Program-made: the position numbers and the translations under genes
Part shown: positions 29,469 to 33,634 of the stretch, in pieces
Layout of the letters: each line of letters starts with the position of its first letter
Numbering within the stretch: position 1 is the stretch's first letter
NCBI GenBank assembly: GCA_030447385.1
Contig: JAUJOY010000003.1
Location: 227,092-282,899 of the forward strand
DNA length: 55,808 nucleotides
Direction: 5' to 3'
Origin: Mycobacteriales bacterium
GTDB taxonomy: Bacteria; Actinomycetota; Actinomycetes; Mycobacteriales; SCTD01
The notes under the pieces: model-generated
Told to the model about the DNA's origin: nothing
Databases searched by the model: none
Seen by the model: the letters and a program-made list of their open reading frames with translations, nothing else

Positions 29469-30995
29469 ATGCAGACCTTCCTGCCCTACCCGGACCTGCG
29501 CACCAGCTGCGTCGTGCTGGACGACCGGCGCCTCGGCAAGCAGCGGGTGGAGACCTTCCAGATCCTGCGCGCCCTGACCTGGCCGTCCTACGCCTGGAAG
29601 AACCACCCGGCGGTGCGCATGTGGCGCGGCTTCGTGCCGGCGCTGGTCGGCTACGGGCTGGAGAGCTGCCGGGAGTGGACGCGGCGCGGCTACGCCGACA
29701 GCGTCGCGCCGCAGCTGCTCGACTGGTCGGGCGGCGCGGAGCCGGTGGCGCCCGCGCTGCCGCCCTGGTTCGGCCTGGCGGCGCTGCACCTGTCGCACCG
29801 GTCGGCGCTCGTGCGCAAGGAGCCGGACTTCTACCGCCCGCTGTTCGCCTGCCTGGGCGAGCCGGAGCTGCCGGACGACCTGCCCTACCTGTGGCCCCCC
29901 GACGTGTTCCCCCGCTGGCCGGTGCGGGCGGGTGCACAGGCCCTGCCGGTGCCCGATGCCTTGCGGCTGCTGGGCTTCCCGGCCCCCCGCGGCGGTCAGG
30001 TGGAGGCGGCGCAGGCGGCAGCCGGGGGGCGTGACGTGCTGCTCGTGGCCCGCCCGGGCACCGGAGGGTCCTCCGCCGGGCTGCTGGCGGGCCTCGCGAC
30101 GAAGGGTCGGACGCTGTGGGTGAGCCCCCGGCAGGGTCCTGCGGCGCCGCCGGTTCCGCAGGTGCCGCTGCCGCCGGCCGGCACCACTGCCGCCGCGTCG
30201 GCTCCTGCCCCGGGTGTGCCCGCGCTGGCCCGCCCACCCGGTCCGCAGGAGGTGGCGGCGATGCGGGCGGAGGCCGAGCCGGCGGAGTTCGTCTTCGTCA
30301 CTGCGGACGCCGTGCCGGCGGTCGTGGACGACGATCTCGGCCTCGTGGTGGTGGACCGGGCTCACGAGCTGGCTGACGCGCAGGCGGCAGCGGTGCAGCG
30401 GCTCCGGCCCGGCCGCGGCGGGCCGCCGCTGCTGGCGGTCACCGGCCGGGCCGACCCGCAGGAGCGCCCCCGTCTGATCGCCGCGCTCGGGCTGCGGGAC
30501 CCGGTGCACGCCGGCGGGGGCTGGGATCCCGGCAGCGTCCTCGAGGCGCGTGCCGTGCACAGCTCCCGGGCACGCCCCCCGGCCATCGCGGCACTGCTGC
30601 AGGAGCGCGGTCCCGGCCTGGTGGTGGTGGCCTCCCCCGCGCGGGCGCGGCGCCTCGCCGAGGGCCTCCTGACCGGGGGCCTGCGGGCCGCGGCCTGGGT
30701 TCCCGGGTCGGTCCGGGCCGCCGATGCAGCTCTCGCCGCCTGGCGGGCGCGGCGGCTGGATGCGCTGGTACTGCCGGACGGGGTCCTGCCGCGCCTCGGG
30801 CGCGCCGGCGTACGCCTGCTGGTGGGGGAGGATCCGCTCACGCTGGAGGCCTGGCGCGACCTGGTCGCGCAGGTGCAGGCAGCGCAGTCGGTGCTCGTCG
30901 CGGGTCCGGATGCCCCCGCCGAGGTGCGGGCCTACGCCGAGGCGCCCGGCGATGCGCGAGCTCGCCTGCTCGACCGGTTCGGCGAGCCCGCCTAG
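29469..30995 (+). CDS. MSMEG_6728-like (T4 endonuclease V-like) domain fused to a degenerate RecQ-type helicase
   Basis: This 508-residue protein has two parts. Residues 1-155 match the MSMEG_6728 family of pyrimidine-dimer DNA glycosylase-like proteins: MQTFLPYPDLRTSCVVLDDR, then RLGKQRVETFQILRALTWPS and NHPAVRMWRG. Residues 163-500 follow RecQ motif order with decayed residues: LRLLGFPAPRGGQVEAAQ (Q motif), RPGTGGSSAG at 195-204 (Walker A without its lysine), RTLWVSP (Ia), VVVDRAHE at 293-300 (DEAH become DRAH), LLAVTGRADPQERPRLIAAL (III), WDPGSV (FDRPNL), GLVVVASPARARRLAEGL (IV) and a motif VI without arginine fingers. The helicase part is probably catalytically dead. The first half may act in UV-lesion or AP-site repair, by family inference only. 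Confidence 0.82.
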   Translation: MQTFLPYPDLRTSCVVLDDRRLGKQRVETFQILRALTWPSYAWKNHPAVRMWRGFVPALVGYGLESCREWTRRGYADSVAPQLLDWSGGAEPVAPALPPWFGLAALHLSHRSALVRKEPDFYRPLFACLGEPELPDDLPYLWPPDVFPRWPVRAGAQALPVPDALRLLGFPAPRGGQVEAAQAAAGGRDVLLVARPGTGGSSAGLLAGLATKGRTLWVSPRQGPAAPPVPQVPLPPAGTTAAASAPAPGVPALARPPGPQEVAAMRAEAEPAEFVFVTADAVPAVVDDDLGLVVVDRAHELADAQAAAVQRLRPGRGGPPLLAVTGRADPQERPRLIAALGLRDPVHAGGGWDPGSVLEARAVHSSRARPPAIAALLQERGPGLVVVASPARARRLAEGLLTGGLRAAAWVPGSVRAADAALAAWRARRLDALVLPDGVLPRLGRAGVRLLVGEDPLTLEAWRDLVAQVQAAQSVLVAGPDAPAEVRAYAEAPGDARARLLDRFGEPA

Positions 30996-32632
30996 GTCAG
31001 CTGGATCGCGAGCAGGGCGACGTCGTCGGGCAGGTCGGTCAGCCCGCCCGCGAGCAGGTCCACGAGCACCTGCGGGCCGTCCGGGGCCCGGTGCCCGGAC
31101 ACCCGCTCGCGCAGCCGCTCGACGTCGCACTCGATGTCCCCGCGGCGGGTCTCGACCAGCCCGTCGGTGTAGAGCAGCAACGTGTCCCCGGGCTCGAGGC
31201 ACGTCTCCGACTCCCCCCGCGCACCGAGCGCCGGAACTCCCAGCGGCACGTCCAGCACGTCCCTGAGCAGCCGGGCCGGACCCGTGTGCGGCAGCAGGAC
31301 GGGGGGGAGGTGGCCGGCGTTGGCCCAGCGCAGCCGACGTCCGGTGCAGCCCTCGGAACCGGAGGGGTCAGGCTGCAGCCGGGCGTAGATGCAGGTGGCC
31401 AGCTGCGCCATCTCGAAGCTCTGGACCAGCTGGTCCATCCGGTCCAGCACCGTGGCCGGGGGCTCGCCCGCCCACGCGCAGGTCCGCAGGACGCTGCGCA
31501 GCTGCCCCATCGCGGCGGCGGCCGCCACGTCGTGGCCCATGACGTCGCCGACCGCGAGGCCGGTGGCACCGTCGGGCAGCGCGAACACGTCCCACCAGTC
31601 GCCGCCGACCTGGCTCTCCTGCCCTGCGGGGACGTACCGCGCCGCGAGGTGCAGCCCGGGCAGCGCCGGCAGCGCCGGCAGGAGGCTCTCCTGCAGGGTC
31701 AGCGCGGTCTGGTGCTCCCGGGTGTAGAGCCGCGCGTTGTCGAGGGCCAGCCCGGCCCGCCGGCCGAGGTCGGCCGTCAGCTTCAGGTCGGCGTCGTCGA
31801 AGACCCGGCCGGAGGGCCCGTGCACCAGCATCATCGTGCCCAGCACGCGCCGCCGGGCGACGAGCGGGACGAACATGAGCGAGGTTGCGCCCAGCTCCAG
31901 GCTGATCTCGCGGATCTCGACCTCCGCGGGGGACAGCGCCTCGGGCGGACGCGGGGTGAACGCCGGGATGATCGAGGGCGCGGCCCCCGCGAGCACCTGG
32001 TGCAGCGGGCTGTCCGTCGGCACCCCCGACGGCACCAGCTCGGTGTAGCGCTTCAGCAGGTCCTCGCGGCCGTCCCGGTGCCGCACGATCGCCCGCTGCG
32101 TCAGGCGCCCCTGCTCGTCGCCCAGGTTGAGGACCACCCAGTCGGCGAGCCGCGGCACGACCAGCCTCGTCAGGCGGTCGAGCGAGTCGTCGAGATCGAG
32201 CGTGGCCGCCAGCGCCTCGGTGACCTCCGCGAGGAGGGCGAGCCGCTGCTCGGCCTTCACGCGCTCGGTCACGTCGGTCTGCACGCCGACGTAGTGGGTG
32301 ACCCGGCCGCCGTCATCGAGGACCGGGCTGATGGACACCTCGTTCCAGAACGGGGTGCCGTCCCGGCGGTAGTTCAGCAGCGTGACCGAGGTGTCCTCGT
32401 TGTCGAGGATCGCCGTGCGCAGCCTGCGCACCGCTTCCGGCTCGGTGTCCGCCCCCTGGAGGAAGCGGCAGTTGCGGCCGACGACGTCGGCGAGGGCGTA
32501 GCCGGTGGTGGCGCTGAACCCGCGGTTGACCCAGAGAAGGGGCAGATCCGGTGCCTGCGCGTCGGCGAGGGTGACGCTGATCCCCGTGGCCTTCATCGCC
32601 CGGTCCAGAAGCCGGGCGTCGTCCTCTCCCAC
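30992..32632 (-). CDS. LOV-GAF-SpoIIE (PP2C) phosphatase, probable blue-light sensor
   Basis: The 546-residue protein has three domains. A LOV-type PAS domain spans residues about 10-125 and carries the flavin motif GRNCRFLQG with photoactive Cys55, Asn87 and Asn97 (NYRRDGTPFWN) and Gln118 (VGVQTDV), the full LOV residue set. A GAF domain spans about 135-305. A SpoIIE-type PP2C phosphatase spans about 320-546, with metal sites QVGGDWWDVF, AVGDVMGHDV and the final LPDDVALL. It probably dephosphorylates an anti-sigma factor antagonist in response to blue light. It starts at GTG, 11 bases after the diacylglycerol kinase-family gene, so the two form an operon. Confidence 0.92.
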   Translation of the reverse strand: MGEDDARLLDRAMKATGISVTLADAQAPDLPLLWVNRGFSATTGYALADVVGRNCRFLQGADTEPEAVRRLRTAILDNEDTSVTLLNYRRDGTPFWNEVSISPVLDDGGRVTHYVGVQTDVTERVKAEQRLALLAEVTEALAATLDLDDSLDRLTRLVVPRLADWVVLNLGDEQGRLTQRAIVRHRDGREDLLKRYTELVPSGVPTDSPLHQVLAGAAPSIIPAFTPRPPEALSPAEVEIREISLELGATSLMFVPLVARRRVLGTMMLVHGPSGRVFDDADLKLTADLGRRAGLALDNARLYTREHQTALTLQESLLPALPALPGLHLAARYVPAGQESQVGGDWWDVFALPDGATGLAVGDVMGHDVAAAAAMGQLRSVLRTCAWAGEPPATVLDRMDQLVQSFEMAQLATCIYARLQPDPSGSEGCTGRRLRWANAGHLPPVLLPHTGPARLLRDVLDVPLGVPALGARGESETCLEPGDTLLLYTDGLVETRRGDIECDVERLRERVSGHRAPDGPQVLVDLLAGGLTDLPDDVALLAIQLT

Positions 32633-32643
32633 GCCGGCCGGCC

Positions 32644-33564
32644 CTACTTTCCCGTCGACTCTGGAGCCGGAGCTGCGACCGCCCTGGGCAGGATGACCTG
32701 GAGGGCTCCGGGGCGCACGCTGACGGTGCACGGCAGCGTGCCGACGGGATCCCCGTCGGCGAACACCCGAAACGGGCGGTTCGCCGCGAGTTCGACCGTA
32801 CGCGCCGTCTGCACGGTCACCTCCGGCGTGTGCACGTGCGTTCCCTGGAACACCCGGGGCAGCATGCGGGCGAAGCGCAGCCGCCCGGTCTCGGCCGTGC
32901 TCACGACGTCGAGCGCACCGTCCTCCATGCTCGCGGCGGGAGCCAGCCGCATGCCGCCGCCGTACATCCCGGAGTTGGACACGGCAACAGCCCAGCCGCG
33001 GACGTGCAGCGGCGCCCCGTCGACGGTGCAGCGGAACTCGGCGGGCTTCCAGCCGGTGATGGTCCGCAACGAGCAGTAGAGGTAGACCAGCGCCCCCAGC
33101 CGCACCCGGCTGGCGAGGACCCGCTCCTGCACGTCGCTGTCGAAGCCGATGGAGGCGATCCCGAGGAAGGGGGTCCGGCCGGTCGCGCTGCTCGCCACGC
33201 CGAGATCCAGCGGCCGCACCTGTCCGGAGGACAGCACTGCGCACGCGGCGGCCAGGTCCTGCGGGATGCCGGCGGCGCGGCAGAAGTCGTTGCCGCGTCC
33301 GCCCGGCAGGACGCCGAGCGTGCCCCCGAGGTCGCTGAGGACGCCGCCGACCCGGCCGACGATGCCGTCGCCCCCCATCGCCACGACCACGCGCCCGTCG
33401 GCGACTCCGGCGGCAGCCAGCTCGTCGGCGTGCTCCAGCGAGCGGGTGGGGGTGACGACGAGGTCGTGTCCCGCGGCGTGCAGGGCAGCCTCCACGGCGG
33501 GCAGGCGCCGAGCCGCCCGGCCGCCACCCGCCGAGGGGTTGACGACGAGCTGCAGCCGGCGCAT
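32644..33564 (-). CDS. diacylglycerol kinase family lipid kinase
   Basis: This 306-residue kinase starts at MRRLQLVVNPSAGGGRAARR (the NPxxG phosphate loop). It has the family signature VVAMGGDGIVGRVGGVL and LPGGRGNDFCRAAG. The C-terminal half contains GFDSDVQERVL and NSGMYGGGMRLAPAASMEDG, as in DgkB/YegS. It would phosphorylate diacylglycerol or a related lipid with ATP. I choose the ATG preceded by GAAGGG rather than one 17 codons upstream, which would run into the divergent TetR gene. It is co-transcribed with the LOV phosphatase. Confidence 0.9.
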   Translation of the reverse strand: MRRLQLVVNPSAGGGRAARRLPAVEAALHAAGHDLVVTPTRSLEHADELAAAGVADGRVVVAMGGDGIVGRVGGVLSDLGGTLGVLPGGRGNDFCRAAGIPQDLAAACAVLSSGQVRPLDLGVASSATGRTPFLGIASIGFDSDVQERVLASRVRLGALVYLYCSLRTITGWKPAEFRCTVDGAPLHVRGWAVAVSNSGMYGGGMRLAPAASMEDGALDVVSTAETGRLRFARMLPRVFQGTHVHTPEVTVQTARTVELAANRPFRVFADGDPVGTLPCTVSVRPGALQVILPRAVAAPAPESTGK

Positions 33565-33607
33565 CGCAGAGCCCTTCTCGAGATTTCCCGCGGCGACAGG
33601 CGTACGC

Positions 33608-33634
33608 TGTGACACATGCCGTCACAACGTCACA
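33608..33634. promoter_or_regulatory. inverted and direct TGTGAC/GTCACA repeats at the TetR start
   Basis: TGTGAC at 33,608-33,613 and GTCACA at 33,621-33,626 form a 6-bp inverted repeat with a 7-bp spacer. GTCACA recurs at 33,629-33,634, and again a little downstream (GTGTCACAC). The inverted repeat spans the ATG of the TetR gene and the 51-bp gap to the divergent lipid kinase gene. It suits a TetR autoregulatory operator that could also affect the divergent kinase-LOV operon. Confidence 0.55.

Follow-up and report, generated by a model that had tools for sequence, protein, structure and literature searches.

Positions 29469-30995 of the forward strand encode a protein of 508 amino acids in which a PF03013-family domain is fused to a C-terminal tail that is, almost beyond doubt, derived from a RecQ helicase, dead as a motor and under constraint. 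The gene lies in a stretch of 55,808 nucleotides from a Mycobacteriales genome, called here the window. It runs from an ATG to a TAG codon, begins 29 bases downstream of the stop of an SPFH-type gene, and overlaps at its end by 4 bases with a convergent gene (30992-33625, reverse strand) encoding a LOV-type PAS domain (GRNCRFLQ; NCBIfam YtvA-like, E 8.3e-42), the C-terminal part of which, by its look, is presumably a PP2C/RsbU-type phosphatase. Homologues of the LOV gene adjoin MSMEG_6728-family genes, also convergently, at L034, L140, L141, L142 and L150, and lie 1.2 kb off at L194. The fusion occurs widely across the class, beyond the single sequence considered in an earlier note, and among present-day species several stages of erosion can be seen: two lobes complete with all four zinc cysteines, two lobes lacking the cysteines, the first lobe (RecA1) alone, RecA1 without the P-loop, and a lone helix-strand motif.

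The N-terminal domain

Residues 1-150 (29469-29918, forward strand) belong to the MSMEG_6728 family, as had been proposed, with matches to NF038085 (residues 1-143, 183.5 bits against a cut-off of 100, E 2.1e-54) and to PF03013, Pyr_excise (residues 1-77, 73.1 bits against a cut-off of 23). The NF038085 model has 149 positions, and the tail lies outside it. Glu28 and Arg26 are invariant in relatives (columns in 14/14 and 15/15 aligned rows); Glu28, matched by eye, we take to be the counterpart of the active-site Glu23 of T4 endonuclease V (DenV), which itself belongs to PF03013 (53.3 bits over residues 1-87). Profile alignment of the domain with DenV by hhalign gave no usable alignment, a search of the PDB by sequence returned no relative and a profile search one chance match (E 0.65), and a PHROGs search yielded nothing useful.

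The earlier note had called the domain endonuclease V-like. Judged by family matches, this label would apply only in the T4 DenV sense, through Pfam membership. The E. coli type of endonuclease V (Nfi) was rejected, no such family appearing among Pfam and NCBIfam matches with E-values as high as 10. The putative catalytic function, that of a pyrimidine-dimer glycosylase/AP-lyase, is taken over from the family. The M. smegmatis namesake presumably lacks a RecQ-derived tail. In tables of two studies, M. smegmatis MSMEG_6728 is listed as lowered in a sigF mutant (PMC4694148) and at -4.0 in a zinc-depletion comparison (PMC7174638), and these entries suggest a role of the family in stress.

RecQ origin of the tail

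The tail (residues 156-508, 29934-30992, forward strand) comprises two lobes predicted to be RecA-like, followed by the remnant of a zinc module, with ATPase-dead motifs. Sequence comparison and modelling both indicate that it is a descendant of RecQ with the RecQ catalytic-core fold. When the tail alone was compared with the PDB using phmmer, RecQ came first (4tmu, E 4.7e-6, over tail residues 5-259; 1oyw, 4.6e-5). RecQ was its sole NCBIfam match, at an E-value of 5.8e-4 and well under the cut-off of the model, and Pfam returned DEAD and DUF2016 only, both sub-threshold. A profile of 9 long tails scored 254.7 against canonical actinobacterial RecQs, with 20.2 for the reversed profile and 18.2 for the best of 20 column shuffles; for a profile of 25 shorter tails the score was 81.1, with controls at 11.8 (reversed) and 16.2 (shuffled). 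Since a single-sequence RecQ profile search placed 19 of 102 proteins above threshold and left many short tails below it, the link of the short tails to RecQ is drawn from the profile-profile comparison.

A model of the tail (29931-30992; three sequences) was of middling confidence (pLDDT 68.6, pTM 0.49). With this model, all 50 PDB rows listed by Foldseek were RecQ-family (best E 8.3e-14, TM 0.35-0.49), and the best VIA structural Z was 20.5, to RECQL5 (rmsd 7.4, 315 aligned), the first non-RecQ row scoring 16.2. The full-length model (pLDDT 48.7), too poor to be used alone, also put RecQ on top in Foldseek, at TM 0.22-0.25 and with DEAD-box rows within the top 50. The RecQ kinship proposed in the earlier note is thus recovered by phmmer, by profile comparison and by Foldseek.

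The zinc-module stump, RARLLDRFGEPA, occupies residues 497-508 (30957-30992, forward strand). The canonical RecQ of the window genome (L166:754-2604) has the C-terminus ...LLAYFGETLGEPCGRCDTC, and the window protein terminates at the equivalent ...LLDRFGEPA. The four zinc cysteines are absent from the window protein; three relatives (L006, L009 and L139) go on with PCGRCDxC and hold all four, L009 scoring above the Pfam RecQ_Zn_bind cut-off (28.0 bits against 25).

The window genome (G000) contains two further RecQ-family matches above the TIGR00614 cut-off (G000:C9:187505-188506, 344.6 bits; G000:C8:205903-206913, 237.6 bits), so that the dead copy is a paralogue and not a replacement. In a tree of possible donor lineages the tail branch was too long to be placed, as long branches meet and letter make-up differs. 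In G407 the dead-RecQ fusion is followed at 2.2 kb by a canonical recQ (L194:9591-11222, reverse strand), and in G634 about 1.1 kb separates a RecQ match (G634:C1:795025-795663) from an MSMEG_6728 gene that has no tail; these proximities reflect perhaps an old neighbourhood, perhaps chance.

Loss of the motor motifs

We aligned 38 tails with 8 canonical RecQs. Three of the tails (L004, L007 and L008) are cut by contig ends, L007 before the DEAH site, and motif VI could be assessed in 8 tails only. GK[ST], DEAH, GRAGR and WGHDF occur in 8/8 canonical RecQs. None of the 38 tails has a Walker A motif of the form A/GxxxxGK[ST] or a DExH-like box (L007 being cut before the latter site), and neither GRxGR, within the 8 tails that reach motif VI, nor WGH/GHDF was found. 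The tail cannot function as a motor.

Relics of the motifs can nonetheless be followed in order along the window protein (all on the forward strand). Motif 0 reads PRGGQ (residues 173-177, 29985-29999), where the RecQ of the same genome has LRPGQ, and Walker A reads PGTGGSS (residues 196-202, 30054-30074), with Gly200 at the position of the lysine. This loop takes the form PGxGGS/T/A or GAGAS/T, with Gly or Ala in place of the lysine and the P-loop shape otherwise kept, throughout the long tails as well as in L005, L007, L010, L011, L142 and L143. Motif Ia is represented by RTLWVSP (residues 214-220, 30108-30128), the position of W217 being W in 31/35 filled rows. A Pro-rich segment then precedes the helix-strand motif ARPPGPQEVAAMRAEAEPAEFVF (residues 254-276, 30228-30296), which stands in place of the RecQ segment ...EFLFLAPEQL; in L009, the linker ahead of this motif contains a EARAEARAEARAEA repeat within residues 235-255. 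Walker B has become DRAH (residues 296-299, 30354-30365), its catalytic Glu gone, and the aromatic-rich WGHDFRP loop that should follow is deleted. TGR (residues 325-327, 30441-30449) replaces the TAT of motif III. The putative RecA2-like lobe, delimited by alignment and model at about residues 351-455 (30519-30833), has a degenerate motif V, and WRDLVAQV (residues 462-469, 30852-30875) stands where GRAGRDG is expected, with no arginine fingers. About 100 residues are missing between RecA2 and the zinc motif.

The earlier note had recognized four of these losses (PGTGGSS at Walker A, DRAH, the missing TAT of motif III and the missing arginine fingers of motif VI), which are seen again in the alignment. 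It had also described RecQ motifs in RecQ order and spacing over residues 163-500: the order is kept, the spacing is not, given the deleted loop, the Pro-rich segment and the residues missing before the zinc motif, and the RecQ tail is better delimited at about 156-508.

Distribution and phylogeny

In the family of the window genome, f1, the N-terminal domain was found in 13 of 24 genomes, and all 13 proteins run at least into the beginning of the tail; contig ends cut five of them (L004, L007, L008, L012 and L013). A search with profile A1 over three overlapping samples gave tailed forms in at least 25 genomes out of 397 from the order, two of which have a minimal form, in at least 18 out of 394 from the class, and in at least 2 out of 396 from the phylum, both of these inside the class. 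Seven N-domain proteins from outside the class (L169-L172, L177, L179 and L182) were opened and had another tail or none. Tailed forms occur under nine family codes (f1, f8, f9, f14, f27, f31, f32, f43 and f48) and in single-contig genomes (G407 in f27, G554 in f31, G321 and G341 in f14). Among the matches listed by the profile A1 search of these 397, 394 and 396 genomes, with some long frames of weak partial match, such as those of G070, G131, G149 and G567, left out, there was no fusion with an intact motor. The first 200 residues of L008 (G014) are identical to those of L012 (G020), the two bins belonging to different genera, and another, differing copy (L040) is present in G014; the shared sequence is probably a mis-binned contig.

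A tree of the N-terminal domain, built without tail columns from 80 rows and 149 columns (few for this number of rows), sets the 38 tail-bearing rows apart from the rest across a branch supported at 97/97, together with L016, which has no tail and a very long branch of its own. This fits a single fusion followed by losses. The long and RecA1-only forms, together with the fragments L004, L007 and L008, are grouped with support 100/97. L005 is separate from L010/L011 both in this tree and in one that includes tail columns, and the position of L029, whose N-domain has a deletion, is unsure. On this phylogeny the RecA2 lobe would have disappeared on at least two occasions: one or more outside the group of long and RecA1-only forms, and again within f1 (L005; L010/L011).

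Some MSMEG_6728 domains bear a different tail of about 130-190 residues with the pattern ..VWVVR...GVVGLGT...PA(A/T)LQDP..VF (L017, L018, L019, L023, L024, L025, L030, L163, L170, L171, L172, L177, L182 and L183), which from its look we take to be PUA/EVE-like. The two of these that were scanned, L017 and L025, have no Pfam match besides PF03013. This group is one clade in the tree that includes tail columns (support 90) but not in the tree without them (24% of bootstrap trees).

Reduction of the tail and the motifs that remain

Long tails with two RecA lobes occur in three families (f1, f27 and f32; proteins of 504-564 residues). L005, L010 and L011, all in f1, keep RecA1 only (310-344 residues), and no convincing RecA2 remnant was seen behind these three truncated genes among the output listed. 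Another 22 rows carry shorter RecA1 remnants, mostly in proteins of 294-323 residues (238 in L029; 404 and 433 in L125 and L126). In the minimal forms L128 (G289) and L129 (G392), both of f14, only the motif SxARxPxxADLxAMxxE...F remains of the tail. The frame of L129 continues in frame into a short-chain-dehydrogenase-like gene.

The motifs conserved in the tails are A..LLG, LLAGL..G.TLW, ARxPxPxDxxAMxxE...F, GLVVxD and PxLxL. They follow the strands and helices of RecA1 in order, and the catalytic residues are not among them. Across 36 tails, a set without L029 and L129, conservation is strongest in the columns of residues L168, A207, A264, E268 and L292; within the helix-strand motif, which persists even in the most eroded relatives (L128 and L129), A264 is found in 36/36 of these tails, E268 in 35/36 and F/W276 in 36/36.

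Selection and composition

The tail is maintained, under a constraint that is relaxed and changed, and weaker than that on the N-terminal domain or on the canonical RecQs of the same genomes. In close pairs, tail pN/pS is 0.22 [0.14-0.32] for L137/L138 and 0.44 [0.36-0.52] for L001/L002; it rises to 0.53 for L001/L003 [0.45-0.63] and L002/L003 [0.45-0.61], and to 0.70 [0.61-0.82] and 0.71 [0.60-0.85] for the distant, saturated pairs L001/L137 and L006/L009. The corresponding values for the N-domain are 0.11 (L137/L138), 0.27 (L001/L002), 0.24 (L001/L003), 0.19 (L002/L003), 0.44 (L001/L137) and 0.48 (L006/L009), and those for the canonical RecQs of the same genomes 0.30 (L001/L002), 0.31 (L001/L003), 0.27 (L002/L003) and 0.63 [0.51-0.77] (L006/L009). 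Some sub-regions of the tail have intervals that include 1, and the minimal pair L128/L129 (dN 0.278, dS 0.346) shows no clear constraint on the tail. In nucleotide alignments, the reading phase is fully kept in 4 of 6 pairs and at 0.97-0.98 in L001/L003 and L002/L003. The open, full-length frame described in the earlier note is thus a maintained one, with 508 codons, in-phase indels and purifying selection in close pairs, and neutral evolution of the C-terminal part, which would have spoken against its reading, is not what the close pairs display.

The normal codon usage that had been ascribed to the gene does not hold throughout: GC at the three codon positions is 0.72/0.52/0.99 in residues 1-155, as against 0.90/0.61/0.88 in the rest of the frame (0.75/0.49/0.94 in the genome's own RecQ). 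The share of Ala, Gly, Pro and Arg is 0.54 in the tail, 0.36 in the N-domain and 0.38 in the genome's own RecQ.

A proposed history and its alternatives

Tree and alignment suggest that a PF03013-family domain and an entire RecQ catalytic core were joined in the common ancestor of a subset of the class. The helicase part then lost its motor, the Walker A lysine, the DEAH glutamate, the motif VI arginines and the aromatic loop being absent from every tail examined. The remainder was kept by selection, as two-lobed tails in three families and elsewhere as part of RecA1 with new motifs. In the reading we favour, the dead helicase would act as an ATP-independent docking module, gripping DNA or a partner protein and so placing the N-terminal domain. 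A single rigid lobe bearing the LLAGL...TLW and ARxPxPxDxxAMxxE...F surface could be enough in the short forms. We consider such a docking role an even prospect, by analogy with the inactivated helicase domains through which AddB and RecC recognise Chi. Against docking speak the constraint, weaker than on the N-domain and on canonical RecQ, the drift in composition, the sub-regions whose intervals include 1, the high values of the distant pairs and of L128/L129, and the RecA2 lobe, which is apparently dispensable, having been lost at least twice by our reconstruction. Since most sampled lineages retain no more than part of RecA1, an intact two-lobed scaffold cannot be selected everywhere. More tentatively, at somewhat under an even chance, reductive evolution may have turned RecQ into a new ATP-independent domain, in which the newly conserved residues (LLAGL..G.TLW and ARxPxPxDxxAMxxE...F), and not the catalytic centre, are what selection keeps and would attach the PF03013 domain to sites of DNA damage or to a partner in repair.

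The main rival to docking, to which we give about one third of the weight, is a tolerated vestige: left jobless by the loss of the motor, the tail would persist as a harmless fold that lineages discard piecemeal. Relaxed constraint and GC-driven drift in composition would be expected of such a vestige, as would the near-neutral tail of L128/L129 and the truncations, which occurred after RecA1 at least twice in the family of the window (L005 versus L010/L011) and go further elsewhere. A vestige accounts less well, however, for a pN/pS of 0.22-0.44 in close pairs, for near-invariant columns across tails from nine family codes, or for the retention in many lineages of the same sub-part, with conserved motifs other than the catalytic ones of RecQ.

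It is unlikely that the long tails bind nucleotide without hydrolysis, with ATP or ADP as a structural ligand or sensor. The preserved loop GxGG/A[ST], from which only the lysine is gone, would give this proposal its site, but the Walker A Lys and the Walker B Glu are both absent, and the other short forms have no loop at all, so that nucleotide binding cannot be general. A chimeric assembly or a spurious frame, which the lengthening of chance frames at a GC of 0.74, the fragmented metagenome bins of many relatives and the wrong binning implied by the L008/L012 duplication might have led one to suspect, is ruled out by the same fusion in many independent genomes, some of them single-contig, by in-phase indels and by purifying selection.

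Comparison with known systems

To our knowledge, only a few repair complexes are known in which an inactivated motor domain has taken on another function. In this family the loss of a motor is recorded in living relatives, from a near-whole RecQ core to a fragment and on one fusion background, so that what remains of a stopped helicase can be tested by tail swaps. An uncharacterised actinobacterial family, listed as SigF-dependent in M. smegmatis (PMC4694148), also gains a concrete architecture and a testable surface.

The N-terminal domain is a clear member of the MSMEG_6728 family, whose single-domain members end at about 150-190 residues, whereas the window protein adds a RecQ-derived tail of 350 residues. 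T4 endonuclease V shares the PF03013 membership but is a single domain. With the RecQ core (L166, 4tmu, 1oyw, RECQL5) the tail has in common the order of two RecA lobes and a zinc stump and the same predicted fold; it differs in lacking the motor motifs, in its deleted aromatic loop and truncated zinc motif, and in its place behind a domain of another enzyme family. Like the inactivated helicase domains of AddB and RecC, which recognise Chi DNA (PMC4824097), it is a helicase fold that was retained in a DNA-repair protein after its motifs had gone, and that in AddB and RecC is used for DNA recognition. Those domains, however, are of superfamily 1 and work inside helicase-nuclease complexes, whereas this one comes from RecQ (superfamily 2), stands behind a PF03013 domain, is reduced to part of one lobe in most sampled lineages and has no homology to them as far as tested. 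In agreement with the earlier note, which knew of no described protein of this kind, we found no description of it among the papers searched on MSMEG_6728, Pyr_excise, dimer glycosylases in connection with Mycobacterium, T4 endonuclease V, inactive or fused RecQ, and AddB/RecC. What is new relative to these systems is an inactivated helicase domain that derives from RecQ, is kept on a PF03013-family protein, and has its erosion visible across relatives.
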